Source: Bacteroidales bacterium
Lineage (GTDB): Bacteria > Bacteroidota > Bacteroidia > Bacteroidales > Muribaculaceae
Direction of reading: 5' to 3'
Assembly: GCA_020860445.1 (NCBI GenBank)
Contig: JAJBUH010000091.1
Span: 1-33,891 of the forward strand
DNA: 33,891 nt
Of this stretch, positions 154-25,644 are shown piece after piece. Within the stretch, counting starts at the first letter, position 1; every line of letters starts with the position of its first letter. The notes under the pieces are model-generated. The model searched no databases. It was not told where the DNA came from and saw nothing but the letters and a program-made list of their open reading frames with translations. The position numbers and the translations under genes were made by a program.

Positions 154-181
154 TTACTTATTACTTTTTACTTATTACTCA
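154..181 (+). repeat. Four tandem heptamers upstream of the S41 protease start
   Basis: The bases read as four 7-bp words: TTACTTA, TTACTTT, TTACTTA, TTACTCA. They end 8 nt before the ATG at 190. The same words in the same order, with the last one differing by one base, lie 7 nt before the ribE start at 25617-25644. No Shine-Dalgarno sequence lies between the repeat and the start codon. Confidence 0.8.
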
Positions 182-189
182 ATATAGAG

Positions 190-1758
190 ATGTATAGATT
201 TTTAACAGCCTTATTGCTTCTTGCCTCCTACACGGCGACATTCGCTCAAATCGATGAGATTTCGCCTGCTCGCAAACTCGGAGTAGCCGAAGCTATAATC
301 GAAAATTATTATGTAGAAGATGTCAATGCCGATTCAGTGGTGACAGAGGGCATCATAGCCATGCTCAAGACCCTGGATCCCCACTCGTCATATTCAACCC
401 CAGCCGAAACTAAAGAACTCAATGAGCCGCTCGAGGGCAAATTCTCCGGCATCGGCGTGCAATTCAATATGTCGACCGACACTGTGTATGTGATTCAGAC
501 CGTGTCGGGTGGACCCTCAGAGAAAGTTGGCATCCGTCCCGGCGACCGCATCATCTCGGCCGATGATTCGATCATCGCTGGCAAGAAGCTGCCCAATAGC
601 GCTATCCTCAAGATATTGCGCGGACCAAAGGATTCGAAGGTCAAATTGGGAGTGCTGCGCAACGGCGAACAGATCGATTTCATCGTAACTCGCGACGATA
701 TTCCAATCAACAGCGTCGATGGCGTGTATATGGTCAATCCTACTATCGGATACATTCGCCTTACCCGCTTTGCTGAAAGCAGCGCCGAGGAGATTGCCGA
801 TGCTATCGCCAAGCTCAAGAAGCAAGGCATGGAGAAACTAATCCTCGACCTCGAGGACAATGGCGGCGGCTATCTGAGGGCAGCCCACGACATAGCTTCG
901 ATGTTCCTCAACAAGGGCGACCTGGTAGTCTACACCAAGGGCAAAAATGTCGACCCGGTATATTACAAGGTTGAAAACCCAACTCCGCTTTTTGATGGAC
1001 CCGTGGTCGTGATGGTCAACCAATACTCGGCCTCGGCCTCTGAGATTGTGTCGGGAGCGCTGCAAGACAATGACCGCGCCACAATCGTTGGACGCCGCAC
1101 CTTCGGCAAGGGATTGGTGCAGAGACCCTTCCCGTTCCCCGATGGCTCGATGATACGTCTGACCGTAGCTCGCTACTATACCCCGTCGGGTCGCTCAATA
1201 CAAAAGCATTACGACAAGGGCAAAGGCGAAGAATATCAGCTGGATATGCTCACTCGCTATAAGAGCGGCGAACTCTGGAGCGCCGACAGTATACACTTTG
1301 ACGAGAGCCAGAAATACACCACGCTGCGCGAGGGTCGCACCATCTACGGCGGCGGTGGCATCATGCCCGACGAGTTCGTGCCAATCGACACCGCCTACTA
1401 CTCGCAATATTACCGCGACCTGATGGCCAAGGGTGTGCTGCCAACCTATACTCTCAACTATGTAGACCAGCATCGCGCTGAGCTCAAGCAGAAATACCCC
1501 ACCGAGGATGCGTTTTTTGAGCAATTCACAGTGACCCCTGAGATGATCCAGGAGGTTGTGGCCAAGGCTCAGGCCGAGGGCGTAGAGCCCAATCCCGAAC
1601 AATTGGCAATCTCGCAGCCGGTGATTGAGGCCATCATCATGGGTTATCTGACTCGCGACCTGTTTGAGGATGGCAGCTATGTGAGGGCTACCAATCCGCT
1701 GAATCCAGTGTTTAGGAAAGCGGTCGAGGTGCTCTCGCCGGATCCATTAGCCCCCTAA
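190..1758 (+). CDS. Secreted S41 C-terminal processing peptidase
   Basis: A 522-residue serine protease of the tail-specific (Prc/CtpA) family, which cuts envelope proteins from their C-termini. I chose the ATG at 190 because it gives a clean signal peptide (MYRFLTALLLLAS, cleavage after TFAQ region); the in-frame extension to base 16 has no such sense and runs through repeat DNA. A PDZ domain lies at about 80-165 (FSGIGVQF, GIRPGDRI). The protease core follows, with the Ser/Lys dyad visible as the middle Ser of SASASE (about residue 282) and Lys in FGKGLVQ (about 307), the usual 25 residues apart. A long C-terminal tail (about 350-522) is helical and less typical. The stop codon falls inside a 50-bp tandem repeat. 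Family assignment is firm; the substrate is unknown. Confidence 0.93.
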   Translation: MYRFLTALLLLASYTATFAQIDEISPARKLGVAEAIIENYYVEDVNADSVVTEGIIAMLKTLDPHSSYSTPAETKELNEPLEGKFSGIGVQFNMSTDTVYVIQTVSGGPSEKVGIRPGDRIISADDSIIAGKKLPNSAILKILRGPKDSKVKLGVLRNGEQIDFIVTRDDIPINSVDGVYMVNPTIGYIRLTRFAESSAEEIADAIAKLKKQGMEKLILDLEDNGGGYLRAAHDIASMFLNKGDLVVYTKGKNVDPVYYKVENPTPLFDGPVVVMVNQYSASASEIVSGALQDNDRATIVGRRTFGKGLVQRPFPFPDGSMIRLTVARYYTPSGRSIQKHYDKGKGEEYQLDMLTRYKSGELWSADSIHFDESQKYTTLREGRTIYGGGGIMPDEFVPIDTAYYSQYYRDLMAKGVLPTYTLNYVDQHRAELKQKYPTEDAFFEQFTVTPEMIQEVVAKAQAEGVEPNPEQLAISQPVIEAIIMGYLTRDLFEDGSYVRATNPLNPVFRKAVEVLSPDPLAP

Positions 1759-1850
1759 CCCCCTAAAGGGGGCAGGCTACCGCCGGTTGGGAGAGTTAGG
1801 CCCCCTAACCCCCTAAAGGGGGCAGGCTACCGCCGGTTGGGGGAGGTAAT
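1751..1850. repeat. Two tandem copies of a 50-bp repeat at a stop codon
   Basis: Copies occupy 1751-1800 and 1801-1850, identical for the first 40 bases and diverging only in the last ten. Each contains CCCCC-TAAA-GGGGG, able to form a 5-bp hairpin. The first copy supplies the last codon and the stop of the S41 protease, so the repeat forms the end of the gene and nearly all of the spacer before the next gene. It may also act as a weak terminator. Confidence 0.9.
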
Positions 1851-1873
1851 ATAAGGAACCAAATCAATTTGCT

Positions 1874-2275
1874 ATGAAAAGGATATTTAAATTCTGGTTG
1901 GTGTGGTGCATCGCGCTGGCGATGGGCATGGCAGCAAGTGCTCAGACCAATGAGGGGCTGAGAGCGATTGTGGAGAAGCTGAATAGCAAATGCCCCATTG
2001 CCCTCAACCATGGCGTGACGCAGCAGAGCGTAGAACTAAACGACACGGCTGTAATCTACACCATCATAATCGACGCCGCTGAGACCCATTTCCACGAAAT
2101 GGAGGGCCATCGCCAATTGATGCATGATGCCAAGGCTATGGAGTTGGCAACCGATGCCAGTCCGGATGCTTTAGCCCCCTACTGCATTAAGCTCAAAATC
2201 TCAGTGATATACCATTTCACTGATGGTCAGGAACATTTCGACTTGGTCATCAAGCCCGAGGACATGGAGTTCTAA
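1874..2275 (+). CDS. Small secreted protein of unknown function
   Basis: 133 residues with a convincing signal peptide (charged MKRIFKF, hydrophobic LVWCIALAMGMA, cleavage at ASAQ). I do not recognise the mature part of about 110 residues. It is mixed alpha/beta in character, with a His-rich stretch (THFHEMEGHRQLMHD, about 73-87) and no further membrane segment. It lies 116 bp after the S41 protease, across the 50-bp repeats, and its stop overlaps that of the convergent glycosyltransferase by 3-4 bp. An envelope role is inferred from the signal peptide only. Confidence 0.75.
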   Translation: MKRIFKFWLVWCIALAMGMAASAQTNEGLRAIVEKLNSKCPIALNHGVTQQSVELNDTAVIYTIIIDAAETHFHEMEGHRQLMHDAKAMELATDASPDALAPYCIKLKISVIYHFTDGQEHFDLVIKPEDMEF

Positions 2276-3387
2276 GAGCGTTGCCACAACTCCTCAAATC
2301 TTCTTGCCACAACCAAGGCATCATTGTTGCGCTTTACGAATTCTGCGCCATATCTCCCCATCTCTGCCCATTCGCTACGCCGCGCCAGCAGTTGCTCTAA
2401 ATCGGCATAAAGCCGATTTGGATCCGCTGGATCAGCGTTGATGATGGGCACTTTTTCTGGGTGGGGCTCATGCACGAAATCATAGTATTCTTTTTCGGCT
2501 CCGCTCACCACAATCTTGCCCTTGCGCATAGCCATCAGCGCGGTGGTGGCTGGGGTATAGGAATACAATTGGTCAACCACCACATGAGCCTTGTCCATCA
2601 CCTGCTTGAATTGCTCGTAAGGCACATTTTGCACGAAGTCAAACTCGACTTCGCCCCGGTGGTCTTCGGCAAACTGCCTCACTATGGGCAACATTCTATC
2701 CGCCCCTTTTTCTATTTCCCTACCCCTATGACAGGCCAGCATGATGCGCAGCGGTTCCTCAGCGCTCAATGGTCGAGGCGCAGCCTCGCTGCAGTCAATT
2801 GGGATGCCAACATACATCAACTTTGACTGCGGCACAAACCGCTCGCACACTTTATGGTACTCATATAGAGCTGTCGCCACGCCATCAACATTGTCATACA
2901 CATGGTGGCATAGGTCGGTGAGGGCCTGGCTGTGCCATTCACTAAGCCTTTCGGAATATCGTTGGGCATAAGGCGTAGGCGCCCCTCCTACCTGCCATTC
3001 GCTGTACCGCAGGATATCAGAGCGGTCGGCGGCAAGGCGTATGTATTGGGGGTCGGTAGCGAGTACCGATAGGCATACCGAGCCGTTGGTGCTTTTCAGC
3101 CGATCAAATAAAGGCTTAAGGCGCTGAGGCTTGAGTTCGACAAATGTTGGGGTGCACAGTTGCACTACGTCGTATCCCTTGAGCTTAGATGCCAATAGGG
3201 TGTTGAGGCGCGCCCACAGCAGAGCCCCGCCCAGTTTGTTGCGTCGGCGGCTCGTGTCGATGTTGCGAGCAGTCTCCATCCAGTTGCCTCCATTAGATGC
3301 CACAGTCACATCATGCCCCAGCTTCACCAACCCCCTGGCCAGCGTAGCATGATACGCACTCGCATCTCCCATCAACAATACCTTCAT
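2272..3387 (-). CDS. Glycosyltransferase, GT-B fold (GT4-like)
   Basis: 371 residues, cytoplasmic. The N-terminus MKVLLMGDASAYHATLARG starts the first Rossmann domain of a GT-B enzyme. The C-terminal domain carries a degenerate donor-site region (DKAHVVVDQLYSYTPATTALMAMRKGK, about 263-289) with VSGAEKEYYDF after it, typical of GT4-like proteins that transfer sugar from a nucleotide-sugar donor. The enzyme likely adds a sugar to a surface polysaccharide, glycolipid or glycoprotein; donor and acceptor cannot be read from the sequence. It lies 18 nt downstream of the GT2 gene, last in the asd-antiporter-GT2-GT4 run. Confidence 0.8.
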   Translation of the reverse strand: MKVLLMGDASAYHATLARGLVKLGHDVTVASNGGNWMETARNIDTSRRRNKLGGALLWARLNTLLASKLKGYDVVQLCTPTFVELKPQRLKPLFDRLKSTNGSVCLSVLATDPQYIRLAADRSDILRYSEWQVGGAPTPYAQRYSERLSEWHSQALTDLCHHVYDNVDGVATALYEYHKVCERFVPQSKLMYVGIPIDCSEAAPRPLSAEEPLRIMLACHRGREIEKGADRMLPIVRQFAEDHRGEVEFDFVQNVPYEQFKQVMDKAHVVVDQLYSYTPATTALMAMRKGKIVVSGAEKEYYDFVHEPHPEKVPIINADPADPNRLYADLEQLLARRSEWAEMGRYGAEFVKRNNDALVVARRFEELWQRS

Positions 3388-3405
3388 ATCATCTTATTTT
3401 CTGAG

Positions 3406-4308
3406 TTATAATAAAGCGAGGAGGTGGGAGGCGGCGGGGAGGCCGAGGGCGGTTAGGCGGTAGGCGAGGAGGAGGATAAGACGATTTTTGAGGGAGGAGC
3501 CTTTTAAGGCACGTTTGAGCAGACGCTGAGAGGCATCAGCGGCTCCCTCGTGGCGGTATAGGCCAGCGAGGATGGCGCGTCTTAGGGATACTATGGGTCG
3601 CAAGGCGACAGGTAGATTTGCCTCGATGCAGTCGAGCGAGTGCTCCCGCTCTGCACCTTTTGAGGAATAGTTGATGCCGGTGATTGATGCGGCTCCGCTG
3701 TCATACATATCCACGGTAGGTTCGCCATGGGCCTTTGCCATTCGGGCATGAGGCAAGAGACGAATGCCAAGTTCAATGTCATTCCACACCGCCACATCCT
3801 CGCGCCAACCACCGGCACGCCGAAACAACTCGGTATGAGCCATATACCGCTGCGTAGCCATAGTGCCATGGAGGATGCAATTGGCATAGACATGCTTGAT
3901 GGCAAATGGCTTGATACATGGCTTCTTATCGGCGATATGCAGACGTATATTCCACCCTATGACATTGGCTCGGGGATGCGCGGCAGCGGTCGACAAAGCC
4001 CTCTCGACATGATTGGGAGCCATAGTGTCGTCGCTGTCAAAAAACATGGTCCACTGCGTTGTGACCCGTGCCAGTCCGGCATTCCGGGCGGCGCAAGCGC
4101 CGGGGCGTGGCTCCTCGATTACTTCGACCGAGAATCCCTCGGCTTGCTGCTCCTCAGCCCATTGGCGCATCACTGCCAGTGTGCCGTCGGTGCTGCCATT
4201 GTCGACCAACACTACTCGCATTGGTCGATAGGTCTGTGCCGCCACCGACTGCAGGGTGCGCTCGATCAGATGCTCACGATTGTGGGCTGGAATTACTATC
4301 GTCAGCAT
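3406..4308 (-). CDS. Glycosyltransferase family 2
   Basis: 300 residues. It opens with the GT2 signature LTIVIPAHNREHLIERTLQS, followed by VVLVDNGSTDGT, the donor-binding region, and the metal-binding motif FFDSDD (about residues 90-95) after GACAARNAG. It transfers a sugar from a nucleotide-sugar by inversion, probably onto a surface glycan. The ATG at 4308 is preferred; a GTG one codon earlier is also possible. The start overlaps the antiporter's 3' end by 35 bp, suggesting coupled translation. The C-terminal 60 residues are Leu/Ala-rich and their DNA is extremely G-rich on the + strand (3418-3480). Confidence 0.88.
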   Translation of the reverse strand: MLTIVIPAHNREHLIERTLQSVAAQTYRPMRVVLVDNGSTDGTLAVMRQWAEEQQAEGFSVEVIEEPRPGACAARNAGLARVTTQWTMFFDSDDTMAPNHVERALSTAAAHPRANVIGWNIRLHIADKKPCIKPFAIKHVYANCILHGTMATQRYMAHTELFRRAGGWREDVAVWNDIELGIRLLPHARMAKAHGEPTVDMYDSGAASITGINYSSKGAEREHSLDCIEANLPVALRPIVSLRRAILAGLYRHEGAADASQRLLKRALKGSSLKNRLILLLAYRLTALGLPAASHLLALL

Positions 4309-6475
4309 CACGGATATCGATTTTGGGTTTGCGGTTGCGGTGAGTCCAGCTCTTCTTAATCACTCCTAAGCGGCGCCAAGCCGCCTTGGTGCGTCGCCAC
4401 AGAGGCGAAGGCGTAGTGTCGAGCGTCGTCGACATTGGGCCAGCGAATGACAGGGCCGTCTGCTCTTGTTCGCCAAACTGCTCGGGGTAGATAAAGAGCA
4501 GATTATTTTGCGAGAAATATTTCTGCAAGAACGATGGTATGTCAGCCAATTCTGACGAATACGACACAGAATTGGCGCGAGCGCCAATCAGCACAAACAG
4601 GTCATCATCAAGCACCTCGTTGCTGATGACGATAAAATCGTCCCATTGTTCAACAGTGCGGTATTCGCTTCTGACCCCGCAATTCTCATGGTGGATGATG
4701 CCGCGTATCAGCGGTTGCACCTCAGCCGAACAGCAGAATATCACTCGGCATCCTATCTGCGAGGCCAAGCGGGCAATCAGGCGCACCCAGCGGTTGAAAC
4801 CGCTCTCATACTGAGCCTTTTGTGGCACATACACCACGATGCGGGTCAGTGTATTTGGGGGTATGAAGCAGCGCGTGATAATCACCATCTTGTTGGTGGC
4901 GCGCAGCAGCTGGCCGATATTGTTGCCAAGGAACGTGTCAATCACTGTCGAGCGCCGGTGTATACCCACGATTACCTCGGTGATGTCACGCTCGTTCATG
5001 GCATTGATGATGCCAGTCACCACGTTCAGGTCATAGCGGTCGAGGGTTTCGACCTTGGTATTGGCAGCCGCGCCGGCTTTCTGAGCGGTCTCCAGGGCGT
5101 TGAGCGACACGGCCTTGCTGGTGGCGCTGTTGTCAGTGCGCACATGTATGGCATAATAGTTGTGTCGGCCGCGCTGGTTGCGCATCAGCATAGCCAAATC
5201 GACCAGGGACTGCGCCACGATTGGCGAACCTACCGATATCAGCGTGTTGTTGACTCTCTGTTGGCGCATATCGTCGGCTCCGTTGCGAGCATCGCTCTCG
5301 AGCATCTCTACCTTGAGCTTGGCGGCAGCCGAGGCGGTAAACATCGGGGCCAAGGCGCAGGTGACCAGGATGACAAGCACGGTGCTGTTGAGGATTTGTT
5401 CGCTGAGCATCCCCAATGAGAAACCCAAGGTGACCACAGCCAGGGCCACAGCCGTGTGGGCTGTGGTCAAGCCGAACATCACCCCACGGCTTGCTTTGGA
5501 TAGGCGGTTGATTCTCTGCGCCAAATAAGCCGGAAGCCATTTGCTGACCAGCGCCACGGCGAGCATGATGCCCGATACGGCCAGGGTCGAGGCATCCATG
5601 ATTACCCTCACATTGATCATCATACCCACGCTGATCAGGAAGTAAGGGATAAACAGGGCGTTGCCCACAAACTCGATGCTTGCCATCAGCGAACTCCCCG
5701 ATGGCACATAGCGATTAAGCACCAAGCCGGCAAAGAATGCGCCAAGCACAGCCTCCAAGCCTATTAGCTGGGCGCCCACGGCGGCGAAAAATACCATGGC
5801 CAGCACGTAGACATACTGGGTCACCTTGTCGGCTACATGCTTGAAAAATAGGCGCGTGAGCCTCGGATAGGTATAGAGGATAAACAGGCAGTAGATGGCC
5901 AGCAACCCCAACATCTTGAATAGAGCCGAAGGGTTGAAGCTTCCCTCACGCTCGACACTGATGGTGGCGCCGAGCACTAGCAGGGCGCCGATTACAGCGA
6001 TGATGGTGCCCACGATGGCAATCAGCACGGCAGGGGCGCGAGTGATGCCGTAGCGCGTGGCCACCGGGTAGGCTATCAGGGTATGCGAGGCATACATCGA
6101 GCCCAAGAGCAGCGATGTAAGCCAGTCGAGGCGCAGCAGCCATACGCTGGTCACTACGCCGAGTATCAACGGCACAAGCAGGGTGAAGAGGCCGAACAAT
6201 AGTCCTCGCTTGAGGTTGAGCTTAAGGTGGAACATGTCAATCTCAAGTCCGGCGAGAAACATCAAGTAGAGCAGACCTACCTGGCCGAAGATGGCAAACG
6301 AAGAGTCGCGGTCGAGGATGTCGAATCCGTAAGGACCGACTACCACGCCCGCGACTATCATGCCAATGATATGGGGTATCTTAAGACGATTGAGGAGCAG
6401 AGGAGCAGCCAAAATGATTACCAGCACGATACAGAATATCGCTACGGGCTGTGTCACCAAGGCTGCTATAATCAT
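4274..6475 (-). CDS. CPA2-type cation/proton antiporter with Usp-like C-terminal domain
   Basis: 733 residues. Residues 1-390 form about 12 hydrophobic segments of the Na+/H+ exchanger (KefB/CPA2) type, with GMIVAGVVVGPYGF near the N-terminus and LLYLMFLAGLEIDMF (about 68-82), both characteristic. Residues about 410-700 are soluble and resemble tandem universal-stress-protein folds (for example EVIVGIHRRS). Such proteins exchange K+ or Na+ for protons across the inner membrane, with the soluble part probably sensing nucleotides or stress. The ion is not determinable. Its start lies 3 nt from a heptamer array that fills the gap to asd, so the two are probably cotranscribed. Confidence 0.9.
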   Translation of the reverse strand: MIIAALVTQPVAIFCIVLVIILAAPLLLNRLKIPHIIGMIVAGVVVGPYGFDILDRDSSFAIFGQVGLLYLMFLAGLEIDMFHLKLNLKRGLLFGLFTLLVPLILGVVTSVWLLRLDWLTSLLLGSMYASHTLIAYPVATRYGITRAPAVLIAIVGTIIAVIGALLVLGATISVEREGSFNPSALFKMLGLLAIYCLFILYTYPRLTRLFFKHVADKVTQYVYVLAMVFFAAVGAQLIGLEAVLGAFFAGLVLNRYVPSGSSLMASIEFVGNALFIPYFLISVGMMINVRVIMDASTLAVSGIMLAVALVSKWLPAYLAQRINRLSKASRGVMFGLTTAHTAVALAVVTLGFSLGMLSEQILNSTVLVILVTCALAPMFTASAAAKLKVEMLESDARNGADDMRQQRVNNTLISVGSPIVAQSLVDLAMLMRNQRGRHNYYAIHVRTDNSATSKAVSLNALETAQKAGAAANTKVETLDRYDLNVVTGIINAMNERDITEVIVGIHRRSTVIDTFLGNNIGQLLRATNKMVIITRCFIPPNTLTRIVVYVPQKAQYESGFNRWVRLIARLASQIGCRVIFCCSAEVQPLIRGIIHHENCGVRSEYRTVEQWDDFIVISNEVLDDDLFVLIGARANSVSYSSELADIPSFLQKYFSQNNLLFIYPEQFGEQEQTALSFAGPMSTTLDTTPSPLWRRTKAAWRRLGVIKKSWTHRNRKPKIDIRDADDSNSSPQS

Positions 6476-6478
6476 TTC

Positions 6479-6619
6479 AAGTCAAAAGTCAAAAGTCAAA
6501 AGTCAAAAGGACTAAGTCAAAAGTCAAAGGTATTAAGTCAAAAGTCAAAGGTACTGAGGCAAAAGTCAAGAGGCAAAAGTAATTTCCACTCTTGACTTTT
6601 GACTTTTGCCTTTTGACTT
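6479..6619. repeat. Heptamer array filling the asd-antiporter spacer, with fold-back
   Basis: From 6479 to 6583 the sequence stays in exact 7-bp phase for 15 words. Nine match or nearly match AAGTCAA (AAGTCAA, GAGGCAA); others are AAGGACT, AGGTATT and AGGTACT. Two AAGTCAA words followed by an AGGTAYT word recur as a 21-bp higher-order unit. At 6592-6619 four inverted words (TTGACTT three times, TTGCCTT once) follow, so the spacer could fold back in RNA. One end touches the asd stop codon and the other stops 3 nt from the antiporter ATG. Confidence 0.9.
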
Positions 6620-7625
6620 ATTTGCCGTGTTTCAGCATATACTGCGCGATCTGCACGGCGTTGAGGGCGGCGCCCTTCTTGATCTGGTCGGCAACGACCC
6701 AGAATGCCAAGCCGTTGGGATTGGTCAGGTCTTTGCGGATACGGCCCACATACACTGGGTCGTGGTCGGCAACCTCGAGGGGCATGGGATAGCCGCAAGC
6801 CTCTTGCTTGTCCATCAGCACGATGCCGGGCTCGGCGGCGAATGCCTCGCGAGCTTGCTCTACGCTCACCGGCTCTTCGGTCTCGCACCATACGGCCTCG
6901 CTATGGGCGCGCAGCACTGGCACGCGCACGCATGTTGCGCTCACGTCGAGGTCGGGAGCATGCATTATCTTCTTGGTCTCGTTGTACATCTTCATCTCCT
7001 CCTTGGTATAACCGTTGTCGGTGAAGACATCAACGTGGGGTATTACATTGTAGGCAAGCTGAGCCACAAATTTCTGTACCTTAGGTTCGCGGCCCTCGAC
7101 CAGAGCGGCGTTCTGCTCTTTGAGTTCCGCCATAGCTGATGCGCCGGCGCCGCTGGCAGCCTGATATGTAGCCACGTGCACGCGCTTAATGGGGCTGACT
7201 TTGTGGATAGCGTTGAGGGCTACAACCATCTGTATGGTGGTGCAATTGGGGTTGGCTATGATGCGGCGCGGAGCGTTGAAGGCATCGTCGCCGTTGACCT
7301 CAGGCACTACCAGAGGGATATCCTGGTCCATGCGGAATGCGCTTGAGTTGTCAATCATCAGGGCGCCGTGGCGGGTGATGGTGTCGGCAAACTGCTTTGA
7401 CACACCGGCTCCAGCTGATACAAAGGCGATGTCGATGCCCTTGAAATCGTCGTTGTCCTTAAGTTCTTGGATGGTTATGGTGCGGTCGCGCCATTTCACC
7501 TGTTGGCCAGCGCTGCGTACTGAGCCGAATAGTTTCAGCTCATCAACCGGGAAGTTTTGCTCATCAAGCACGCGGAGGAATTCTTGTCCTACGGCTCCGC
7601 TGGCTCCTACAATTGCTACGTTCAT
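6618..7625 (-). CDS. asd: Aspartate-semialdehyde dehydrogenase
   Basis: 335 residues, the usual length. It reduces aspartyl phosphate to aspartate semialdehyde with NADPH, the branch point to lysine/diaminopimelate, threonine and methionine; the diaminopimelate branch feeds peptidoglycan. Visible: the NADP-binding start [17 protein letters not shown], the catalytic Cys in NPNCTT (Cys128), and the later active-site His in VLRAHSEA (His241). A probable promoter -7 box lies 71 bp upstream. The stop codon is built into the inverted heptamers that fill the spacer before the antiporter gene. Confidence 0.97.
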
Positions 7626-7630
7626 AATCG

Positions 7631-7651
7631 TATTTGCGTTTTGCGTTTGCG
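7631..7651 (-). repeat. Three short tandem words before the asd start
   Basis: Read on the minus strand, the leader contains CGCAAAC, GCAAAAC and GCAAATA, ending 5 nt before the asd ATG. It is the weakest member of the set of 7-bp word repeats found next to start codons in this window, with only three imperfect words. Confidence 0.55.
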
Positions 7652-7695
7652 AGTGGCTGTTACGCCTTGTTTTTTCTCGTTTAGGATTCTCACCG

Positions 7696-7703
7696 CAAAA
7701 TTA
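7696..7703 (-). promoter_or_regulatory. Probable -7 box for asd
   Basis: On the minus strand this reads TAATTTTG, a perfect match to the Bacteroidota -7 consensus TAnnTTTG, about 70 nt upstream of the asd ATG. I see no convincing TTTG at the expected -33 distance, so confidence is moderate. Confidence 0.5.
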
Positions 7704-18176: not shown

Positions 18177-18366
18177 ATTTGAGTGTTAAAATGTGAAACG
18201 TTTTTTAGTTAAAAGCTATCGGGCGCTGAGGCCTCGGCCTCGGCGTCACCGCCCGTGATTAACCACATAAATAACGGATAAAAAGCCGAAAATGGCTTGC
18301 CACGCACCATAAAAAGGGGGATTATTTGAAAAAAACTTAAATTTGAGGTTAAAAATAGGTAGTTAA

Positions 18367-18398
18367 TTTGGGGATATGGCAAAAAATGTCTACCTTTG
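18367..18398 (+). promoter_or_regulatory. Promoter of the PpiD-like gene
   Basis: TTTG (18367-18370), 20-bp spacer, TACCTTTG (18391-18398): full match to the Bacteroidota consensus. The ATG at 18452 follows with a leader of about 45 nt. Confidence 0.82.
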
Positions 18399-18451
18399 TA
18401 CGCTTTTTTCCAACACGCGGAAATAATAAACAATAATCATTATAACAACCA

Positions 18452-20620
18452 ATGGCAACATTAGAGAAAATTAGAAGCAAATCGGTGTTTCTGTTCGTCA
18501 TTATCATCGTGGCGCTTCTTGCATTCATCTTGGGCGACTTCCTCACCTCAGGACGCTCCTATTTCGGCTCAGGCACTACCATGTACACTGGAGGCAAAGG
18601 CTCAGTCGACTACACAGACTACCAGAACGCTACCAGCAACCTGCAGAGCCAAGGTCAAGACGGAGCTGAGCTTGAGCAAGCCTTGCTCCAGCAATTACTG
18701 ATGCAACAGCTCATGGAAGAGCAATACAACGAGCTCGGCATCACCGTCACAGACAAAGAGATTTCACGTATCATGAACGAGCAAATGCCCATCTCGCAGC
18801 AGCTGGGCACCGCCGCTCAACAGCTGGGCCTCCCGGTTATAGACCGCCCCACTGTGCTCGACGCTATCAACAACCCCTCGCGCTACGGCATCACCGCCGA
18901 GCAGCAGCAATACCTCAAGGCTGTGTGGATGGCCGAAGAGAAGGAGCTCGAGCAGTCAATCAAAAACCAAATCTTTCTGGGCCTCGTCAGCAGCCTCTTC
19001 ACTGCCAACGAGCTTGACGCCAAGAGCCTCTATAACGACAACATGGAGCGTCGCCCCCTCAGCTACGTGAGCACCCCTATCGGCATCGTCCCCGACGACC
19101 AGATCGAGGTGACCTCGGCTGACCTGCGCGCTAAGTGGGAGGAGCTGAAGCCTAACTTCAACACCTCGGTCTACGTGCCTCAGAATGATCCCGCTCAGAT
19201 GATGAATCCTCGCGGTGCCGCTACCCGCCCCGCAGCTGTCAACGAGCCGGTGCGCGCCATCGACTACATCGTGGTCAACATAGCTCCCTCAACTGCCGAC
19301 TACGCTGCCGCTGAGGCAGAGGTCAACGAAGCCGTGGCTGCCCTCAACACCCAGCCCGCTCTGCAGGGTCTGCTCGGCCGCAAGAAATTTATCTCTAACA
19401 CCAACAATGTGTCATTGGCTAACATCAAGAAGGATGCCACCCTGCGCCAGCTCCAGGATTCTGACCTGGTGGTTGACCATGTCAAGGCTCTCCGCTTCGA
19501 CCGCGCCAACAACACCTATAATATTGTAAAGGTGCTGGGTCGCACTCAGGAGGTTGACTCGATCAACTTCTCAGCCTACGCTGCCATCTCGCAGATGGAG
19601 GCCGACTCGCTGATGTCGCAGCTCGCCTCTGGCACCACCATCGCCGAGCTCGTAGCTATCAACCCCGGTCGCGGCGCCGACAATGCTTGGGCATCTCTGG
19701 TTGGAGCTCAGCCCCAGATCAAGGAGCGCATGCTGGCCGAGGCCACTGGCAAGCCCTTTGTCTATGCCGACTCGCTCCAGGGCGTGTACACCATCTATCA
19801 GATCAACGAGCGCAAGGCTCCCGTTGACTATGCCGAACTCGCACTGGTGAGCTACACCGTTGACCCCTCGCCCCAAACCGTAAGCGACCTCAAGACCAAG
19901 CTCAATGGCTTCCTCGCTACCAATATGAAGGGCGACGCTTTCTCGGCCAACGCTGACTCGCTCTATCGTCTGCAGCACGGCTTCGTATCAGCATCGTCAG
20001 CCCACATCGGCAACGTAGCTGACACCCGCAAGGCTGTGAAGTGGGCCATGGAGGCCAAGCCCGGCCAAGTATCAAAGGTATTTGAGACTCCCAAGGAATA
20101 TGTGGTAGTAGCTGTCAAGGAGGTATTCAACGATGGCTACATCCCCTACAACTCACCCCAAATCCAGGACTACCTGACCGCCGAGGTCAAGAAGGACAAA
20201 AAGGCTGCCAAGCTCAAAGAGCAATATGCTGGCAAGGCAAGCGATCTGGCCGGATATGCCAAGCTGATGAATGCTGAGGTTCGCACCGACAGCAACGCCG
20301 TGTTCACCTCGCAGCGCATCGCTGGCCGCATGGGCGAAAACTACGCTCTGCAAGGCTACATGGGCGCCGCTGAGCCCGGCCAAGTGGTTGGTCCTATCAA
20401 GAACGGCAACGAACTGGTAGTGTTCAGCGTGGCTCCCTCGACCGTGCAGGGTCGTCCCTACGACTATGCTACCGATGGCCGCCAGTTCACCAACACCTTC
20501 GGTCTCAACTTCGACTTCTCGGGCCGCAAGGCAGTGGATCCGGTGATGTTCAACTTCCTGCTCGATGGCAAGAAGGTTAAGAACCAGAGCCTCAAATTCG
20601 TGCAAAGCGACGAAAACTAA
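18452..20620 (+). CDS. ppiD: PpiD/SurA-type periplasmic folding factor (parvulin-like)
   Basis: 722 residues. One N-terminal membrane anchor (SVFLFVIIIVALLAFILGDF, residues 11-30) places the rest in the periplasm, as in PpiD. A SurA-N-like helical region follows (LLQQLLMQQLMEEQYNELGI, then VTDKEISRIMNEQM). Parvulin-like segments lie further on; the clearest is GNVADTRKAVKWAMEAKPGQ with VSKVFETPKEYVVVAVKE (about 512-550), but they are degenerate, so isomerase activity is uncertain and chaperone activity more likely. It is a single gene with its own promoter and a terminator after it. Length is normal for the Bacteroidota family. Confidence 0.88.
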   Translation: MATLEKIRSKSVFLFVIIIVALLAFILGDFLTSGRSYFGSGTTMYTGGKGSVDYTDYQNATSNLQSQGQDGAELEQALLQQLLMQQLMEEQYNELGITVTDKEISRIMNEQMPISQQLGTAAQQLGLPVIDRPTVLDAINNPSRYGITAEQQQYLKAVWMAEEKELEQSIKNQIFLGLVSSLFTANELDAKSLYNDNMERRPLSYVSTPIGIVPDDQIEVTSADLRAKWEELKPNFNTSVYVPQNDPAQMMNPRGAATRPAAVNEPVRAIDYIVVNIAPSTADYAAAEAEVNEAVAALNTQPALQGLLGRKKFISNTNNVSLANIKKDATLRQLQDSDLVVDHVKALRFDRANNTYNIVKVLGRTQEVDSINFSAYAAISQMEADSLMSQLASGTTIAELVAINPGRGADNAWASLVGAQPQIKERMLAEATGKPFVYADSLQGVYTIYQINERKAPVDYAELALVSYTVDPSPQTVSDLKTKLNGFLATNMKGDAFSANADSLYRLQHGFVSASSAHIGNVADTRKAVKWAMEAKPGQVSKVFETPKEYVVVAVKEVFNDGYIPYNSPQIQDYLTAEVKKDKKAAKLKEQYAGKASDLAGYAKLMNAEVRTDSNAVFTSQRIAGRMGENYALQGYMGAAEPGQVVGPIKNGNELVVFSVAPSTVQGRPYDYATDGRQFTNTFGLNFDFSGRKAVDPVMFNFLLDGKKVKNQSLKFVQSDEN

Positions 20621-20680
20621 CCCTCTGATGTGTAATCTGACCTAAAAACCCAGATTCACACAGATTTACCCAGATATCAG

Positions 20681-20715
20681 AATCCCCAAACCCGCCCCCG
20701 GTGGATTTGGGGATT
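20681..20715 (+). terminator. Terminator after the PpiD-like gene
   Basis: Arms AATCCCCAAA and TTTGGGGATT (10 bp) enclose a 15-nt loop, 60 nt after the stop. The T-tract is poor (TCTCAT), so termination strength is uncertain. Confidence 0.6.
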
Positions 20716-20735
20716 TCTCATAACCCTCTATCCCC

Positions 20736-20770
20736 ATTTTTCATTTTTCATTTTTCACTTTTCATTTTTC
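20736..20770 (+). repeat. Five tandem heptamers touching the ATG at 20771
   Basis: Five 7-bp words, ATTTTTC four times and ACTTTTC once (fourth position), run without gap into the start codon. No other ribosome-binding signal is present. Confidence 0.85.
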
Positions 20771-21227
20771 ATGTCTTTTTTCCACTCCGTAGAATTTTAC
20801 ATCATATTGGCTGTCATAGCTGCCGCCATCGTGGCGTTCAGCGCTCGGCCATCGGCCCGAGGGCCAGTCGAGGAATACCTCGTGGCTGGCGACCTGAGCG
20901 ATTCGCCTATCGATACGCCCAAGATTGAGGTCTACTGCCCCGACAACGGCGGCATCGAGCTGTGGCGCTACGGCGTAGACGGCCTCACCGACACCGGCGC
21001 ATTGAGCCTGGCAATCACCAAAAAAGGGTAACGACCTGATGATCGAGGAGCGTCTCACGCCAGGGCGCGGCGTGCTGATGCCAGCCCAGCAAGCATATTT
21101 TCGCGTCAAGCACATGCCTCCGGGCCGCTACCACGTGAGATACAACAGCCAAAAGACGGGCCTATTCGCTGCTTTCCCACTGCATATCACCCCTGGACTG
21201 CGTGCGAGCCGGGAGCTGGGCAGATAA
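20771..21227 (+). CDS. Small membrane-anchored protein of unknown function, frameshifted
   Basis: Two frames join into one plausible protein of about 151 residues. Residues 1-25 (FHSVEFYIILAVIAAAIVAF) make a membrane anchor; the rest is soluble and I do not recognise it. The first frame stops at 21031 after AITKKG. The second (21039-21227, MIEERLTPGRG...) continues sensibly if one base is removed from the run A6G3 at 21020-21028, giving ...TKKGNDLMIEERL. So the sequence has one base too many in a homopolymer: a true mutation, a phase-variable tract or a sequencing error. It precedes an unrecognised membrane protein by 107 bp. Confidence 0.6.
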
Positions 21228-21263
21228 CCTATAAGTATTTTTTTGGCAAATGGAAAGTTTTCA

Positions 21264-21295
21264 TTTGTAAATTACGGTAAATAACCGTAAATTTG
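21264..21295 (+). promoter_or_regulatory. Promoter with internal operator-like inverted repeat
   Basis: TTTG (21264-21267), 20-bp spacer, TAAATTTG (21288-21295). Inside the spacer and reaching into the -7 box lies an inverted repeat TTACGGT-AAATA-ACCGTAA (21272-21290), well placed to bind a repressor. Confidence 0.75.
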
Positions 21296-21334
21296 CAGTG
21301 AGTTTTAATAAAGTACGTTTCCAATAATCTCTGA

Positions 21335-23026
21335 ATGGACAAACTGCAACTATATATCACTACCAGCCAGGCTGAGCTTCAGACACGCGTAGAGATCAAT
21401 CCAGACCCCTACGTGCAGAGCTGGGTGTGCGACTTGCGCGAAGCTGTAAGCCAAGTCGATTATCCGATAGCTGGCCTCTCAATCTTCTACTTGGTCAAAT
21501 ACATCGACACCGGCATGTTTGTGGTGGTGCTGCGCACCATACCCAAGTCGCCCGGCAGCCACCTCGCCGCTTGGATCTACATCCCCTACTCGCTGCGCAT
21601 TCCCGACAAGGATGTGCTCAACTTTGTGCAATTTATCACCCACAAGGTCGAGGCCAGCGAGGTCAGCGCCAAAGACATCGCTGAGATGCGCGAGGTATTC
21701 TCGCACGACTATGAAGAGGAGGTGCTATATCCCGTATTTGCGCCATCCGAGGGCATAGCTTATGCTTATCGCTACTATGGCCCGCGCACGGGCGCCTCGC
21801 TTGCCGACCTGCTCGGCCCGTATCGCTATCAGCCTTGCTATCTGACATTTGCCGGTGTCTTGCTCATCGACCAAGACATCACCACCAATGTGGCTGGCAC
21901 CAATCTCACCTCGGCTCCGCTCGAGGATATGGCGGTGCTGCTTCCGCCTCACAAGACCGAGGTCGACGGTTATCGTCCTACCATCTATGGGCAGAAGTTT
22001 GACCTACCCTACTTCGTGCCGATGTCGCGCAACATCGACATCGTATGGGTAAAGGACAACGCTGCCGACATCAAGCAAGCCATATATGTGGCCCAGGGCG
22101 AGATGCGCGCTCCCAACCTCAACCCCTCGCGCCCGGCTCCCATACCAGTGCGCGAACCCAAGCCCGCGCCCAAGCCCGAACCTGGAGCCAAGAATGAACC
22201 ATTCAGCGCCTCTGATTCCGCTGATACTAATAGCGAAAGCGAATCAGCCCCACGCGTTGAGGGTACGCAAGAGCGCCAGCCCAGCCAAGAACGCCAAATC
22301 GGCCAGGAGCGCAAAAAGACTTATCATTTCCAGATTCCGGCCAAGTCGGCCGCCATCGGCACAGTGATCGAGTTTGAGATTACCACCAATGCCGATCTGG
22401 CAGACAGTCCTATCGATGGGTACGAGGCCACAAGCGATATCCAAGAGGGCGCTGGCCGCAGCAACCACCTATTTTATAAGGCATCGAGCAGCCTCAAGCA
22501 GCAATGGCTGGAGCGTTCGCTCTTCGCTCTCGGCGGAGCAGTGATCGGCGCGCTCATCATGCTGGCTTGCCTTGGCACTGGCGGCTCAAAGAGCAACGAC
22601 AAGCCCGCAGTGGCTGCCGCTGAGACAGTGGTTGAAGTGCCTGTTGCCGTGCCAGCTGACACTGCTACTCAGGCCCAGACACAGGACGCAGCGCAGGGCG
22701 CTACCCAAGCCAATCAGGCACCGATTGACCCAGCTGACCGTTCGCTTGAGGCCGCAGTTAGATACCTCGACACCAATCAGATTTGGGAGAAGGCCGAAAT
22801 GGAATCCTACCCCGACCTGCAAGGACTATACAACGACATGAACCAGATCGACCGCCACAAGCTGGTTGAGACTTGGGCTCCGAGGCTTAAGGACTCGCGC
22901 ACATTTACCAATGTGGCGCGCCACGCTCGCCTGTCATATAAGAAGAAGGCAAGGAAGACCCCCTTCAATACCCCCGAGGAAACCTCGATCCGCATCCAAG
23001 CCTATCTCAACAACATCGACCCCTAA
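21335..23026 (+). CDS. Single-pass membrane protein of unknown function
   Basis: 563 residues, no signal peptide. Residues 1-250 form a soluble domain I do not recognise. A Pro-rich linker (PAPIPVREPKPAPKPEPGAK, about 268-287) and a Glu/Ser-rich stretch follow, then a small beta-like segment (about 330-370). One membrane helix stands at about 392-412 (SLFALGGAVIGALIMLACLG), with basic residues before it, so the large N-terminal part is probably cytoplasmic and the C-terminal 150 residues periplasmic. The C-terminal part is helical and ends in basic LSYKKKARK. Cytoplasmic domain, linker, helix and outside domain would suit a transmembrane coupler or sensor, but this is inference. Confidence 0.7.
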   Translation: MDKLQLYITTSQAELQTRVEINPDPYVQSWVCDLREAVSQVDYPIAGLSIFYLVKYIDTGMFVVVLRTIPKSPGSHLAAWIYIPYSLRIPDKDVLNFVQFITHKVEASEVSAKDIAEMREVFSHDYEEEVLYPVFAPSEGIAYAYRYYGPRTGASLADLLGPYRYQPCYLTFAGVLLIDQDITTNVAGTNLTSAPLEDMAVLLPPHKTEVDGYRPTIYGQKFDLPYFVPMSRNIDIVWVKDNAADIKQAIYVAQGEMRAPNLNPSRPAPIPVREPKPAPKPEPGAKNEPFSASDSADTNSESESAPRVEGTQERQPSQERQIGQERKKTYHFQIPAKSAAIGTVIEFEITTNADLADSPIDGYEATSDIQEGAGRSNHLFYKASSSLKQQWLERSLFALGGAVIGALIMLACLGTGGSKSNDKPAVAAAETVVEVPVAVPADTATQAQTQDAAQGATQANQAPIDPADRSLEAAVRYLDTNQIWEKAEMESYPDLQGLYNDMNQIDRHKLVETWAPRLKDSRTFTNVARHARLSYKKKARKTPFNTPEETSIRIQAYLNNIDP

Positions 23027-23028
23027 GC

Positions 23029-23046
23029 AATTGTGAATCCACAATT
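23029..23046 (+). terminator. Weak hairpin after the membrane-protein gene
   Basis: AATTGTG and CACAATT form a 7-bp stem with an AATC loop, just after the stop codon. The following bases are pyrimidine-rich, not a T-run; weak evidence. Confidence 0.35.
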
Positions 23047-23057
23047 ATCTCTCCTCT

Positions 23058-23092
23058 AACTCATAACTTATAACTCACAACTCATAACTAAC
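23058..23092 (+). repeat. Five tandem heptamers before the GH31 start
   Basis: The words are AACTCAT, AACTTAT, AACTCAC, AACTCAT and AACTAAC, in exact 7-bp phase and ending 5 nt before the ATG at 23098. Confidence 0.8.
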
Positions 23093-23097
23093 ATACC

Positions 23098-25479
23098 ATG
23101 TTCAACGCAAAGATTATCAGAAACGCGGCATTGATGCTTGCCGCTCTGCTGGCCAGCGCTTGCACCAAGACTCAGGAACAGTCGCAAATGTCGACCAACG
23201 TCAGCGACCGCCACGTGGTGGTGACTGCCGTCACTGACAACATAATCCGTGTGGAGAGCGCCGCCGAGGGCCAACAGGCACTGCCCTCGCGCGCCACTGT
23301 GCTCGACGGCCTGGCTCAAGGCGCCAAGGTAAAAGTGTCGAAAAGCAGCGACGTGCTCTCTACCCCTTCGGGCCTCACGGCTACCCTCAACAAGGCCGAT
23401 GGCAATACCTCGATCAACGGTGGCGTCAACAAAATCGTCAACTCGACCAACGAGCCTATCATATTGCCTGACGGGCGCCAGTGCATCACGCTCAAGACAA
23501 CATCGCGCGGCGCATATTACGGAGCCGGCGAACGCGGACACAGCATCAATCTGCGCGGCGACACGCTGGTGATGTACAATCGACAGAATTACGGTTACAC
23601 CCAGGGCGACCCGCGCATCTCGCAGATGAACATTACGATGCCTCTGTTCATATCGTCTGACGGCTTTGCCATCCTCTTTGACGACTACGCAGCAGCCGAA
23701 ATGATTCTGGGCGAGGACGATACTATCAAATATATCACCGAGAATCCCAATCCGATCACCTATTATTATATCAACGGCGCTGAGACCATCGCTGATGTGA
23801 CACGCGAACTCACCAGCCTCACTGGTCGCCAGCCCCTGCCGCCGCTGTGGAGCCTTGGCTATATCACATCTAAATACGGTTATCACAATGAGAAAGAGAC
23901 CGTCGGAGCCATAGATTCGCTCAAAAAGCGCGGTTATCCCGTCGATGGCATCGTGCTTGACCTGTATTGGTACGGCAAGGAGCAAGACATGGGTCGCCTG
24001 GCTTGGGAGCCCAAGCAATGGCCTAACCCCGAGAAGATGCTTGCCAACCTCAAGGATCAGAACGTAAACCTCATAGCCATCTCCCAGCCCTACGTGCTGC
24101 GCAATGGCAAAGCTATCGATAATTACAACGAGCTGGCACCCAAGGGCATGTTTATGGCCGACACCACTGGCCAAGGGCCGCAAGAAGTGACCATCTGGGT
24201 GGGCGAAGGAGGTATGTTCGACGTTTCCAACCCCGACACTCGCGCTTGGATGCGCCAACGCTACAAAGAGCTCACCGATGGCGGAATCACCGGATGGTGG
24301 GGCGACCTGGGCGAACCCGAAGTGCATCCCAATGGCTTGCACCACAATGGCTTGACTTCGCGCCAATACCATAACCAGTATGGCAACGACTGGAGCGAAA
24401 TCATCTCTGAGCTATTCGCTGAGGAATATCCCGACACCCGACTTGTGACAATGATGCGCGGTGGTACCACCGGTCTGCAGCGCTATTCAGTGTTCCCCTG
24501 GTCGACCGACGTGTCGCGCTCGTGGGGCGGACTGCAACCCCAGGTGACCATCATGCTCAACTCGGGTCTGAGCGGCCTGGGCTACATGGGCCACGATGTG
24601 GGCGGTTTTGCTGTCGACAAGGAGCACCCCGAGGATGCCGAGCTGTATGTGCGCTGGCTGCAACTGGGTACCTTCTCGCCCATGCTGCGCACCCACGCCC
24701 AATACAAGGCCGAACCTTACCACTATCCCAAGTACGCCTCAATCATCCTGCCGCTGATCAAGGAGCGCTATCGCTGGTTGCCATACAACTACACCTTGGC
24801 TTATGAGAATGCTCAATACGGCTATCCGCTGGTGCGTCCGCTCAACTTCACCGAGGCTGGCAGCCACGCTTACGATGCCATCAATGATGAGTACCTGTGG
24901 GGCTCGGAGGTGCTGATTGCACCGGTGTTGACCCAGGGCGCAACCGAGCGCGAGGTAACTTTCCCGCAAGGCACTTGGGTTGACTTCAAGGCTCCCTTCA
25001 CTCAGTATCAAGGCGGTTCGACCGTCACCTATCCAGCTCCGCTCGAGGTGCTGCCTATGTTTGCCAAGGCTGGCGCGTTTATCCCAATGGCTGACAATGC
25101 CATGACCTCGACTGCTGATTACGATCCGGCCAATCTGACGGTGCAATTCTTCCCGGTCGAGGGCGTAAGCTCAGAATTTACCCTCTATGATGACAACCGC
25201 CTTGACCCCAAGGCTCTTGAGAAGGGCGAATACCGCCTGATCCATTTCAAGGGCGAATATCAGGATGGCACCATCACGGTAAGCATATCCACCGAAGGGA
25301 CCTATCCTGGCGCAGCCGACGAACTCAACTTCCTATTGGTATTCAATGGGGTAAAGCCTGAGGTACAAAGCATAGGCCTAAATGCAGGCGATGGCACGCA
25401 GACCACCTACAATGGCCAAGCCGCCATGGGTGTCAAATTCAATCCCTCGCAATCCCCCATTGTGACCGTGCAACCTTGA
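23098..25479 (+). CDS. GH31 family glycoside hydrolase, lipoprotein
   Basis: 793 residues. The signal peptide ends in a lipobox (LLASAC, Cys22), so the enzyme is envelope-anchored. The N-terminal beta-sandwich of GH31 is followed by the TIM barrel: GIVLDLYWYGKEQDMG, the nucleophile region WWGDLGEPEVHPNG (Asp403) and the acid/base region FPWSTDVSRSWGG (Asp471), then GYMGHDVGGF. C-terminal beta domains follow (WVDFKAPFTQYQGGSTVTYP). The family cuts alpha-linked glucosides or xylosides with retention; the substrate is not readable. The gene is not in a visible SusC/SusD locus. Its stop codon overlaps the first 48-bp repeat. Confidence 0.93.
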   Translation: MFNAKIIRNAALMLAALLASACTKTQEQSQMSTNVSDRHVVVTAVTDNIIRVESAAEGQQALPSRATVLDGLAQGAKVKVSKSSDVLSTPSGLTATLNKADGNTSINGGVNKIVNSTNEPIILPDGRQCITLKTTSRGAYYGAGERGHSINLRGDTLVMYNRQNYGYTQGDPRISQMNITMPLFISSDGFAILFDDYAAAEMILGEDDTIKYITENPNPITYYYINGAETIADVTRELTSLTGRQPLPPLWSLGYITSKYGYHNEKETVGAIDSLKKRGYPVDGIVLDLYWYGKEQDMGRLAWEPKQWPNPEKMLANLKDQNVNLIAISQPYVLRNGKAIDNYNELAPKGMFMADTTGQGPQEVTIWVGEGGMFDVSNPDTRAWMRQRYKELTDGGITGWWGDLGEPEVHPNGLHHNGLTSRQYHNQYGNDWSEIISELFAEEYPDTRLVTMMRGGTTGLQRYSVFPWSTDVSRSWGGLQPQVTIMLNSGLSGLGYMGHDVGGFAVDKEHPEDAELYVRWLQLGTFSPMLRTHAQYKAEPYHYPKYASIILPLIKERYRWLPYNYTLAYENAQYGYPLVRPLNFTEAGSHAYDAINDEYLWGSEVLIAPVLTQGATEREVTFPQGTWVDFKAPFTQYQGGSTVTYPAPLEVLPMFAKAGAFIPMADNAMTSTADYDPANLTVQFFPVEGVSSEFTLYDDNRLDPKALEKGEYRLIHFKGEYQDGTITVSISTEGTYPGAADELNFLLVFNGVKPEVQSIGLNAGDGTQTTYNGQAAMGVKFNPSQSPIVTVQP

Positions 25480-25610
25480 TTTGCTACACAGAGGCGACCC
25501 TACGGGCCGCGCTGCTGGCGCGATTGATTTGCTCCACAGAGACGACCCTACGGGCCGCGCTGCTGGCGCGATTGATTTGCCACACAGAGACGACCCTACG
25601 GGCCGCGCTG
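25478..25610. repeat. 2.8 tandem copies of a 48-bp repeat
   Basis: Copies start at 25478, 25526 and 25574, differing at only a few bases; the third is cut to 37 bp. Each holds CGACCCTACGGGCCGCGCTG. The period is a multiple of three, which creates a spurious ORF with a 16-residue repeat. The block begins at the GH31 stop and is followed after 6 bp by the ribE leader heptamers. Confidence 0.92.
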
Positions 25611-25616
25611 GGAGAA

Positions 25617-25644
25617 TTACTTATTACTTTTTACTTATTACTTA
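25617..25644 (+). repeat. Four tandem heptamers before the ribE start
   Basis: TTACTTA, TTACTTT, TTACTTA, TTACTTA, then GATTACA and the GTG start. It is nearly the same sequence as the leader of the S41 protease 25 kb away. Confidence 0.85.

Follow-up and report, generated by a model that had tools for sequence, protein, structure and literature searches.

Heptamer arrays and genes in the window

The DNA analyzed here (the window) is the 33,891-nt contig JAJBUH010000091.1 of a Muribaculaceae genome deposited as Bacteroidales bacterium (GCA_020860445.1; here G000, 4.14 Mb in 281 contigs, the window being contig 3), and our subject is a set of tandem arrays of 7-bp words that lie at the borders of unrelated genes in it. 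A first-pass annotation of the window had described such arrays directly before six start codons. Period-7 runs were found at all six places by Tandem Repeats Finder and inspection of the letters, with that before asd being weak (2.3 copies). Genes were named from NCBIfam profiles and called with simple scripts of our own, so that starts are uncertain by some codons and stops are firmer. Arrays were also called with our own lag-identity caller, using a score of at least 14 and with low complexity removed.

The first array (TTACTTA, 3.7 copies, 154..179, plus strand) falls under the lag-caller threshold and directs its pyrimidine strand toward the start of an S41 C-terminal processing peptidase (190..1758, plus; TIGR00225; ATG 190 from our own caller). 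A 50-bp tandem unit with CCCCCTAA words beside GGGGG starts at the stop codon of that gene (1750-1845). On the minus strand, an array of TTGACTT (6479..6580; Tandem Repeats Finder and lag caller) has a pyrimidine strand that stops 3 nt before the start of a CPA2-type monovalent cation:proton antiporter (4274..6475, minus; NCBIfam, below the curated cut-off). It is faced by an inverted partner array (6588..6619, plus; Tandem Repeats Finder), the pyrimidine strand of which enters the stop codon of asd, encoding aspartate-semialdehyde dehydrogenase (6618..7625, minus; NCBIfam). Together, these two arrays occupy nearly the entire asd-antiporter spacer (6476-6617), for which the minus-strand RNA has a predicted fold of -41.7 kcal/mol (z -5.7). 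The weak run before the asd start (7633..7648, minus; Tandem Repeats Finder and letters) is again under the lag-caller threshold.

The remaining arrays, all on the plus strand and called by Tandem Repeats Finder, are ATTTTTC in 5.4 copies (20735..20772), which touches ATG 20771 of a small open reading frame of 86 aa (20771..21031; own caller); TAACTCA in 4.7 copies (23057..23089), before a GH31 alpha-glucosidase/alpha-xylosidase-like gene (23098..25479; NCBIfam, below curated cut-offs); and ATTACTT in 4.1 copies (25616..25644), before ribE, the riboflavin synthase gene, which has a GTG start (25652..26263; NCBIfam). Other repeats are also present in this part of the window. Directly 3' of the GH31 stop lies a 48-bp tandem repeat of 2.8 copies (25476-25610), where the sister genome introduced below has other repeats with a CCCCTACGGGG motif, and inverted AAGGACAT/ATGTCCTT word repeats (26302-26477) lie between ribE and the next gene, similar DNA being found in many contigs of the sister on both strands. 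An Rfam scan of the window gave 0 matches above the gathering score.

According to the first-pass annotation, the arrays end 0-8 nt before the start codons. This is true of five of the six gaps, i.e., those of the antiporter (3 nt; 6475, minus), asd (7 nt; 7625, minus), the small frame (0 nt; ATG 20771), GH31 (4-8 nt; ATG 23098) and ribE (7 nt; GTG 25652), but not of the S41 gene, where the gap is about 10 nt (ATG 190). Moreover, placement at starts only does not hold even within the window, since the additional array at 6588-6619 has the opposite orientation and abuts a stop codon.

By its GH31 gene, the closest named relative of G000 is Muribaculaceae bacterium Zag1 (L049; 98% identity over the best segment). 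The sister genome in our sample (G004) is very probably Zag1, as judged from the main window matches in its contig 32, which equal those of L049 in length and score. Aligned DNA segments of the two genomes are 89-96% identical, and the 86-aa small frame is 97.7% identical in the sister. Metagenome-assembled genome records titled Clostridium, Pseudoflavonifractor, Paenibacillus and Lachnospiraceae (L050, L078, L099, L102) carry GH31 genes 57-66% identical to that of the window; these titles may be wrong.

Abundance and border polarity of the arrays

Arrays were counted in 350,642 bases, i.e., the window plus 26 stretches not picked for hits. This unpicked set consists of the window and contigs 1-34 minus the contigs taken for pattern hits, which leads to under-counting of ACTTTTG-type words, and the window within it was itself selected by the finding. 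Left out of the counts were arrays lying for the most part within called genes and those lacking two neighbors, as were near-ties between the purine and pyrimidine strands (three own arrays and three of G117 in the first polarity count, five in the count of own and sister arrays).

The lag caller found 39 intergenic and three genic period-7 arrays in this sample, five dinucleotide shuffles of the intergenic DNA yielded no period-7 arrays, and no other period from 4 to 30 gave more than 10 intergenic arrays. Genome-wide, three copies of TTGACTT gave 153 exact, partly overlapping matches, compared with 0 for the backwards pattern. Four word types accounted for most of 84 arrays, namely ATTTTTC (26), ACTTTTG (20), ACTATTC (13) and AACTCAT (10); within the unpicked stretches their counts were 14, 4, 10 and 6, respectively. 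Some breaks in the draft follow repeats, with own contigs L009, L020, L021, L033 and L046 ending or beginning inside, or no more than 3 nt from, heptamer arrays.

For the analysis of polarity, each array was oriented by its pyrimidine-rich strand, a side was called near when it lay within 20 nt of a gene border, and random placement in the same spacers served as the null. Of 32 arrays in the unpicked own stretches, 26 had their 3' side near a border (a stop in 19 and a start in 7) and three their 5' side, with a null of 10.3 for each. The sister gave 10 of 21 (7 starts, 3 stops, so that starts exceed stops in that genome alone) against 3 of 21, with nulls of 5.2 and 5.0 (p 0.09 alone). In G117, a member of another Bacteroidales family whose array words mostly differ from ours, the counts were 17 of 45 (15 stops, 2 starts) against 1 of 45 when the strand was assigned by C-richness (null 5.0 each), and 17 of 39 against 0 of 39 when it was assigned by pyrimidines. 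Summed over the three genomes, the polarity is 53 against 7 (p 8e-10). The loaded genome G192 was dropped from this test, its 33,813 bases holding one array. A second gene caller, combined with orientation by C over G, gave 28 against 4 of 36 in our genome and 10 against 1 of 20 in the sister, and a further count gave 7 of 16 against 0 of 17. Repeats of other periods showed weak polarity (16 against 7 of 61; nulls of about 9.8 and 9.2). Background composition was rejected as the cause, as the pyrimidine share, 0.52 upstream and 0.49 downstream of genes, differs too little.

The arrays thus run into genes at both ends, and the window mostly displays the start side. This does not bear out the description of the arrays as a start-codon feature, for in the genome stops carry at least as many of them: 19 against 7 of the 32 unpicked arrays, and 60 against 34 of 132 own and sister arrays, part of whose stretches were picked for hits. 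Of 39 arrays of the commonest type, ATTTTTC, that met a border, 36 did so at a stop, with the remaining words divided between 24 stops and 31 starts. GGTTTTT words are exceptions by pyrimidine orientation and conform by C-richness, and ACTTTTG words, having equal G and C, were placed by criteria other than C-richness. At L017 7859-7925, a heptamer run enters a coding region, where AAGTCAA-like words encode the C-terminal residues of the upstream protein. Stretches of G117 (L182-L191, L260-L279) held 48 period-8 arrays in addition to 55 of period 7 in 412,739 bases.

Inverted pairs and letters common to several loci

Printing of 49 array spacers revealed a frequent layout of stop codon, purine heptamers, core, pyrimidine heptamers and start codon, with both sides ending at stops where genes converge. 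Inverted neighbor arrays less than 150 nt apart numbered 17 in our genome and six in the sister; all 23 had the order purine-core-pyrimidine, and none the reverse. Both arms carried the same word in 17 of 17 own and 5 of 6 sister pairs, where shares of 0.27 and 0.26 were expected. Neighbor arrays of the same orientation within this distance formed five pairs in each genome.

On the core side, a non-periodic 12-mer was common to another locus in 13 of 77 arrays, mainly from GCCATCCGGATGGC and with the two arms of one copy counted separately. On the gene side, no array (0/77) had a non-periodic 12-mer in common with another locus. One core, CCATCCGGATGG, is its own reverse complement, and its 20 two-strand matches therefore represent 10 sites.

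Turnover relative to the sister genome

Among 43 orthologous spacers of the two genomes, median identity was 0.27 for the 16 with an array in either genome vs 0.89 for the 27 without. One of the 16 rows (L027 3348) rests on a misplaced gene end, the sister in fact holding the array pair, and the median stays at 0.27 with 15 rows. In the window, the antiporter spacer of the sister is shorter by 14 nt, and the array before 20771 measures 38 nt in our genome vs 60 nt in the sister. Most of the GH31 spacer differs between the two genomes, starting within the stop codon (TAA vs TGA), and the ribE array is identical in both while its upstream DNA differs from inside the stop codon onward. Differences in array copy number are seen at the species level, i.e., between our genome and the sister. 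A 7-bp duplication process at leaders, as envisaged in the first-pass annotation, fits the 14-nt antiporter difference and the 38 vs 60 nt before 20771, but slippage alone is insufficient, as entire cassettes also appear and disappear, their inverted arms bearing the same word.

Such a cassette is found between thiH and thiF, where the sister has a heptamer palindrome of 191 nt with a perfect stem of 47 nt, and where our genes overlap as TGATG. The junction could be read by a thiH motif in 13 of 28 loci fetched from the genus, i.e., our own, that of the sister and 11 further loci. In nine of the latter the junction is compact, with the genes overlapping or at most 10 nt apart; of the remaining two, G047 (L235) has an unrelated palindrome of roughly 80 nt, and G007 seemingly has another gene after thiH. 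Because the junction is compact in our genome and in nine of the 11 others, we conclude that the palindrome was gained in the sister. Between thrA and apgM it is our genome that has a palindrome (92 nt, AACTCAT), the sister genes overlapping by ATGA; apgM of the thr operon has matches only in G000 and G004 of 49 genus genomes, so that gain and loss are indistinguishable here. A GGTTTTT-type palindrome takes up 151 nt between apgM and thrC in the sister, where our genes overlap. Palindromes of AACCACAGATTTACACAGATT words, present in our genome at L041 11427-11668 and 12599-12839 and absent from the same sister spacers, are apparently another family with longer words that behaves similarly.

Distribution among genomes

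Three copies of the pattern WTNAYTH gave 1164 matches in G000 and 1290 in G004, compared with 0 to 80 per genome in the remaining 47 members of the genus (top three 80, 74 and 61), 19 of the 49 having none. The load is therefore sporadic, with two heavily loaded genomes of 49, which makes a conserved initiation signal unlikely. Across 247 genomes of the order, G117 (733 matches; 40 for the backwards control) and G192 (432; control 21) stood out, and many others were near the control. Loci of 80 named relatives held 14 arrays only, two of these in L049. At 4.1 and 4.5 Mb, the two loaded genomes also exceed in size all others sampled from the genus (1.8-2.9 Mb).

The first-pass annotation had also implied an excess of period 7 near starts. 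Upstream of starts, the ratio of observed to expected lag-7 identity was indeed 1.11 in our genome and 1.17 in the sister, but 1.02 at 79 loci of relatives. Downstream of stops the corresponding ratios were 1.17, 1.11 and 1.03, so that the excess is not specific to starts. In mid-spacer windows, which may include small uncalled genes, they were 0.99, 1.01 and 0.99, and 28 asd loci of the genus gave 1.00 upstream, 1.04 downstream and 0.95 in mid-spacer (few windows). As the excess occurs at both borders in our genome and the sister and hardly in relatives, period 7 characterizes gene borders in two loaded genomes and not leaders throughout the group.

Two candidate causes of the burst were considered. 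One is driving of the spread by a RAYT (REP-associated tyrosine transposase, REP being a repetitive extragenic palindrome); the load has no clear relation to the number of Y1_Tnp genes, though G004 has the most. Loss of SbcD would favor palindromes; SbcD was, however, found in both loaded genomes, and it scores above the cut-off in 17 of the 49 genus genomes, which argues against loss of SbcCD as the second candidate cause.

Strand content and leader structure

The two strands of the arrays differ in what they would present to a ribosome. Among the 89 period-7 arrays, which here comprise ties and genic arrays as well, the pyrimidine strand contains ATG in three and the purine strand in 48, and stops in all three frames are present on the pyrimidine strand in 30 and on the purine strand in 61. 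Leaders with arrays (25 starts, -40 to +20) are predicted to fold less stably than 300 others (median -2.2 vs -5.8 kcal/mol; p 1e-6) and are richer in A+T (median 0.73 vs 0.67). With 150 nt of context, the difference in fold fades (p 0.07), and pairing is not significantly lower (0.35 vs 0.50, p 0.18). Members of the Bacteroidota have been reported to rely little on Shine-Dalgarno sequences (PMC3155529, PMC6847099).

Origin of the arrays

Our best explanation, to which we give somewhat better than even chances, is a recent spread, within this Muribaculaceae lineage, of a family of palindromic intergenic repeats; the arrays would be their outer arms, or what wear has left of these. A full copy would consist, from a stop codon onward, of purine heptamers, a short core that is often a GC palindrome, and pyrimidine heptamers of the same word leading to the next start or, between convergent genes, to the next stop. 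New copies would arise at gene junctions as entire cassettes, the arms later gaining or losing 7-nt units. The pyrimidine strand running into a start would rarely offer an ATG, would fold little, and may thus be tolerated by a bacterium that initiates without Shine-Dalgarno pairing; the purine strand running out of a stop, often having stops in all frames, could replace the last codons of a gene. Selection would keep one orientation, and copies would be near-neutral at gene borders. The account builds on the observed border polarity, same-word inverted pairs, core side common to some loci, sporadic loads and one gain polarized by outgroups; copying as the mode of spread and selection as the cause of orientation are what we infer. 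Hallmarks of miniature inverted-repeat transposable elements (MITEs) are seen, i.e., inverted repeats at the ends (the 23 inverted pairs) and insertion at a formerly empty site (thiH-thiF).

Several observations weigh against this explanation. Words vary between copies, unlike in a normal transposable family, and just 13 of 77 arrays have core-side letters in common with other loci. Only the thiH-thiF gain has an outgroup; no clear target-site duplication was seen at the gained junctions, there being none clear at thiH-thiF and a possible TGA/ATGA duplication at thrA-apgM. The sister palindrome at apgM-thrC contains an N gap, and all of the evidence comes from draft assemblies. The backwards WTNAYTH control is itself high in the loaded genomes (412 in G000, 560 in G004), the pattern also fitting related words. 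Y1_Tnp (RAYT-type) genes occur in 33 of the 49 genomes, with two in G000, five (the maximum) in G004 and 0-4 elsewhere. ACTTTTG-type words lack ATG on both strands and yet show the same degree of polarity as other words (24 against 2 of 33), so that selection against false starts is not the whole cause; formation of the cassettes may itself also be polar. Finally, stems scoring at least 8 occur behind arrays as often as in other intergenic DNA (36% of 76 vs 36% of 385; p 0.89).

A hairpin core as the defining part was accordingly rejected: stems within 70 nt behind arrays exceed shuffles and equal other intergenic DNA, those scoring at least 14 being present in 11% vs 6%. As GC hairpins are no commoner behind arrays than in other spacers, such cores belong to a wider load of palindromes.

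A serious rival, although we consider it unlikely, is that the palindromes form de novo: template switching at short inverted repeats would copy an arm in inverted form, slippage would multiply the heptamers, and coding selection would halt growth at the gene border, all without a mobile element. In its favor, the sister arms at thiH-thiF match over 47 perfect nt, and the 14-nt difference in the antiporter spacer equals two units. The variation of words between cassettes and the unrelated palindrome of G047 at the same thiH-thiF junction fit this rival as well. A small set of words serves most loci, however, and core-side 12-mers recur at other loci, both of which point to copying; in addition, SbcD is present in both loaded genomes.

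It is improbable that the purine-core-pyrimidine palindromes are bidirectional intrinsic terminators with T-rich tails grown by heptamers. In several convergent spacers a GC palindrome does lie between an A-rich and a T-rich arm, and the antiporter spacer (6476-6617) has a stable predicted fold. Nevertheless, hairpins are not enriched behind arrays over other spacers, words such as TTGACTT and AACTCAT are not U tracts, and cassettes arise between overlapping, operon-like gene pairs.

Still a little less probable, in our view, is a function in leaders, whereby words before starts would be kept because they raise initiation independent of Shine-Dalgarno pairing and could be adjusted through copy number. 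The lower structure and higher A+T of array leaders are in keeping with such a role, as is the ribE array, identical in both genomes although its upstream DNA is not. Against it, stop borders hold as many arrays or more in G000 and G117, the difference in pairing loses significance with 150 nt of context, and matches are far scarcer in the 47 remaining genus genomes (0 to 80 vs 1164 and 1290). An aid to initiation was one of the two readings suggested in the first-pass annotation. Lastly, misassembly of repeats and palindromes in drafts is very unlikely to have created the arrays. Five of 84 do lie at contig ends, and a palindrome of the sister is interrupted by a stretch of N, but several arrays agree between two separate assemblies, and two of these (ribE; L017 14326-14406) have exactly the same letters within the array.

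Relation to known repeats

The polarity of heptamers at gene borders was published in 2015 for the G-rich words GGGAATC and GGGGA(C/T)T of Xanthomonas and Nostoc, the G-rich strand being antisense upstream of open reading frames and sense downstream of stops (PMC4692102). That study was framed around quadruplexes and found no function (PMC4692102). As in the present genomes, those arrays are tandem and intergenic, an inverted pair is illustrated, and length and sequence vary between relatives (PMC4692102). The polarity is likewise similar, since the C-richer strand enters genes in our genome, the sister and G117. However, the Xanthomonas and Nostoc words are G-rich and fold as quadruplexes, and their neighborhood is described as more stable (PMC4692102), whereas here there are several A+T-rich main words per genome, none of the four commonest having a G tract or any run of G or C, and the array spacers turn over fast.

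TAACTGA repeats, reported from Beggiatoaceae and some Cyanobacteria and Bacteroidetes, run toward a start codon in 147 of 170 sets and toward stops in 12 (PMC4679880). They resemble the present arrays in ending a few nt before starts and in their sporadic distribution among species, and differ in being a single, start-biased word (PMC4679880), as opposed to several words, with stops at least equal in G000, and palindromic pairs. The word TAACTGA was absent among the array words typed here.

The short tandemly repeated repetitive (STRR) heptanucleotides of heterocystous cyanobacteria are also dispersed tandem heptamers between genes, with words and hosts different from those described here.

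REP sequences and bacterial interspersed mosaic elements (BIMEs) share with the present repeats a palindromic, intergenic nature, positions between tandem and convergent genes, and inverted dimers; they are, however, associated with RAYTs and have a GTAG or CGTC tag at one end of the palindrome (PMC3733652), whereas the arms here are tandem heptamers and the load has no clear relation to Y1_Tnp. BrickBuilt of Porphyromonas gingivalis, a MITE with a minisatellite, similarly places tandem repeats inside an inverted-repeat element in the Bacteroidales, but has a 23-nt unit in 19 copies and lies 49-591 nt from coding sequences (PMC4596501). In the literature searched we found no published description of repeats of this kind in Muribaculaceae. 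The polarity rule is therefore known, and what we found no precedent for are the A+T-rich words, the palindromic pairs built from a single word, a burst that is sporadic within a genus, and the gain of a cassette where a junction was compact.

A tentative and rather doubtful extension is that several phyla share one DNA-writing process that lays down whole heptamer palindromes with changing words at gene junctions, such that the C-rich strand enters the gene both at its start and at its end. If so, a single phenomenon would underlie the burst described here, the polarity in another Bacteroidales family and that in Xanthomonas and Nostoc, and the unit length of 7 would be set by the machinery and not by the words. 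That A+T-rich words lacking G tracts show the polarity in two families of Bacteroidales argues against a general explanation by quadruplexes. Leaders of this type call for caution before they are called regulatory signals without a test. The sister pair, in which a cassette may occupy a compact operon junction in one genome and be missing from it in the other, offers recent insertions from which the mechanism may be read.

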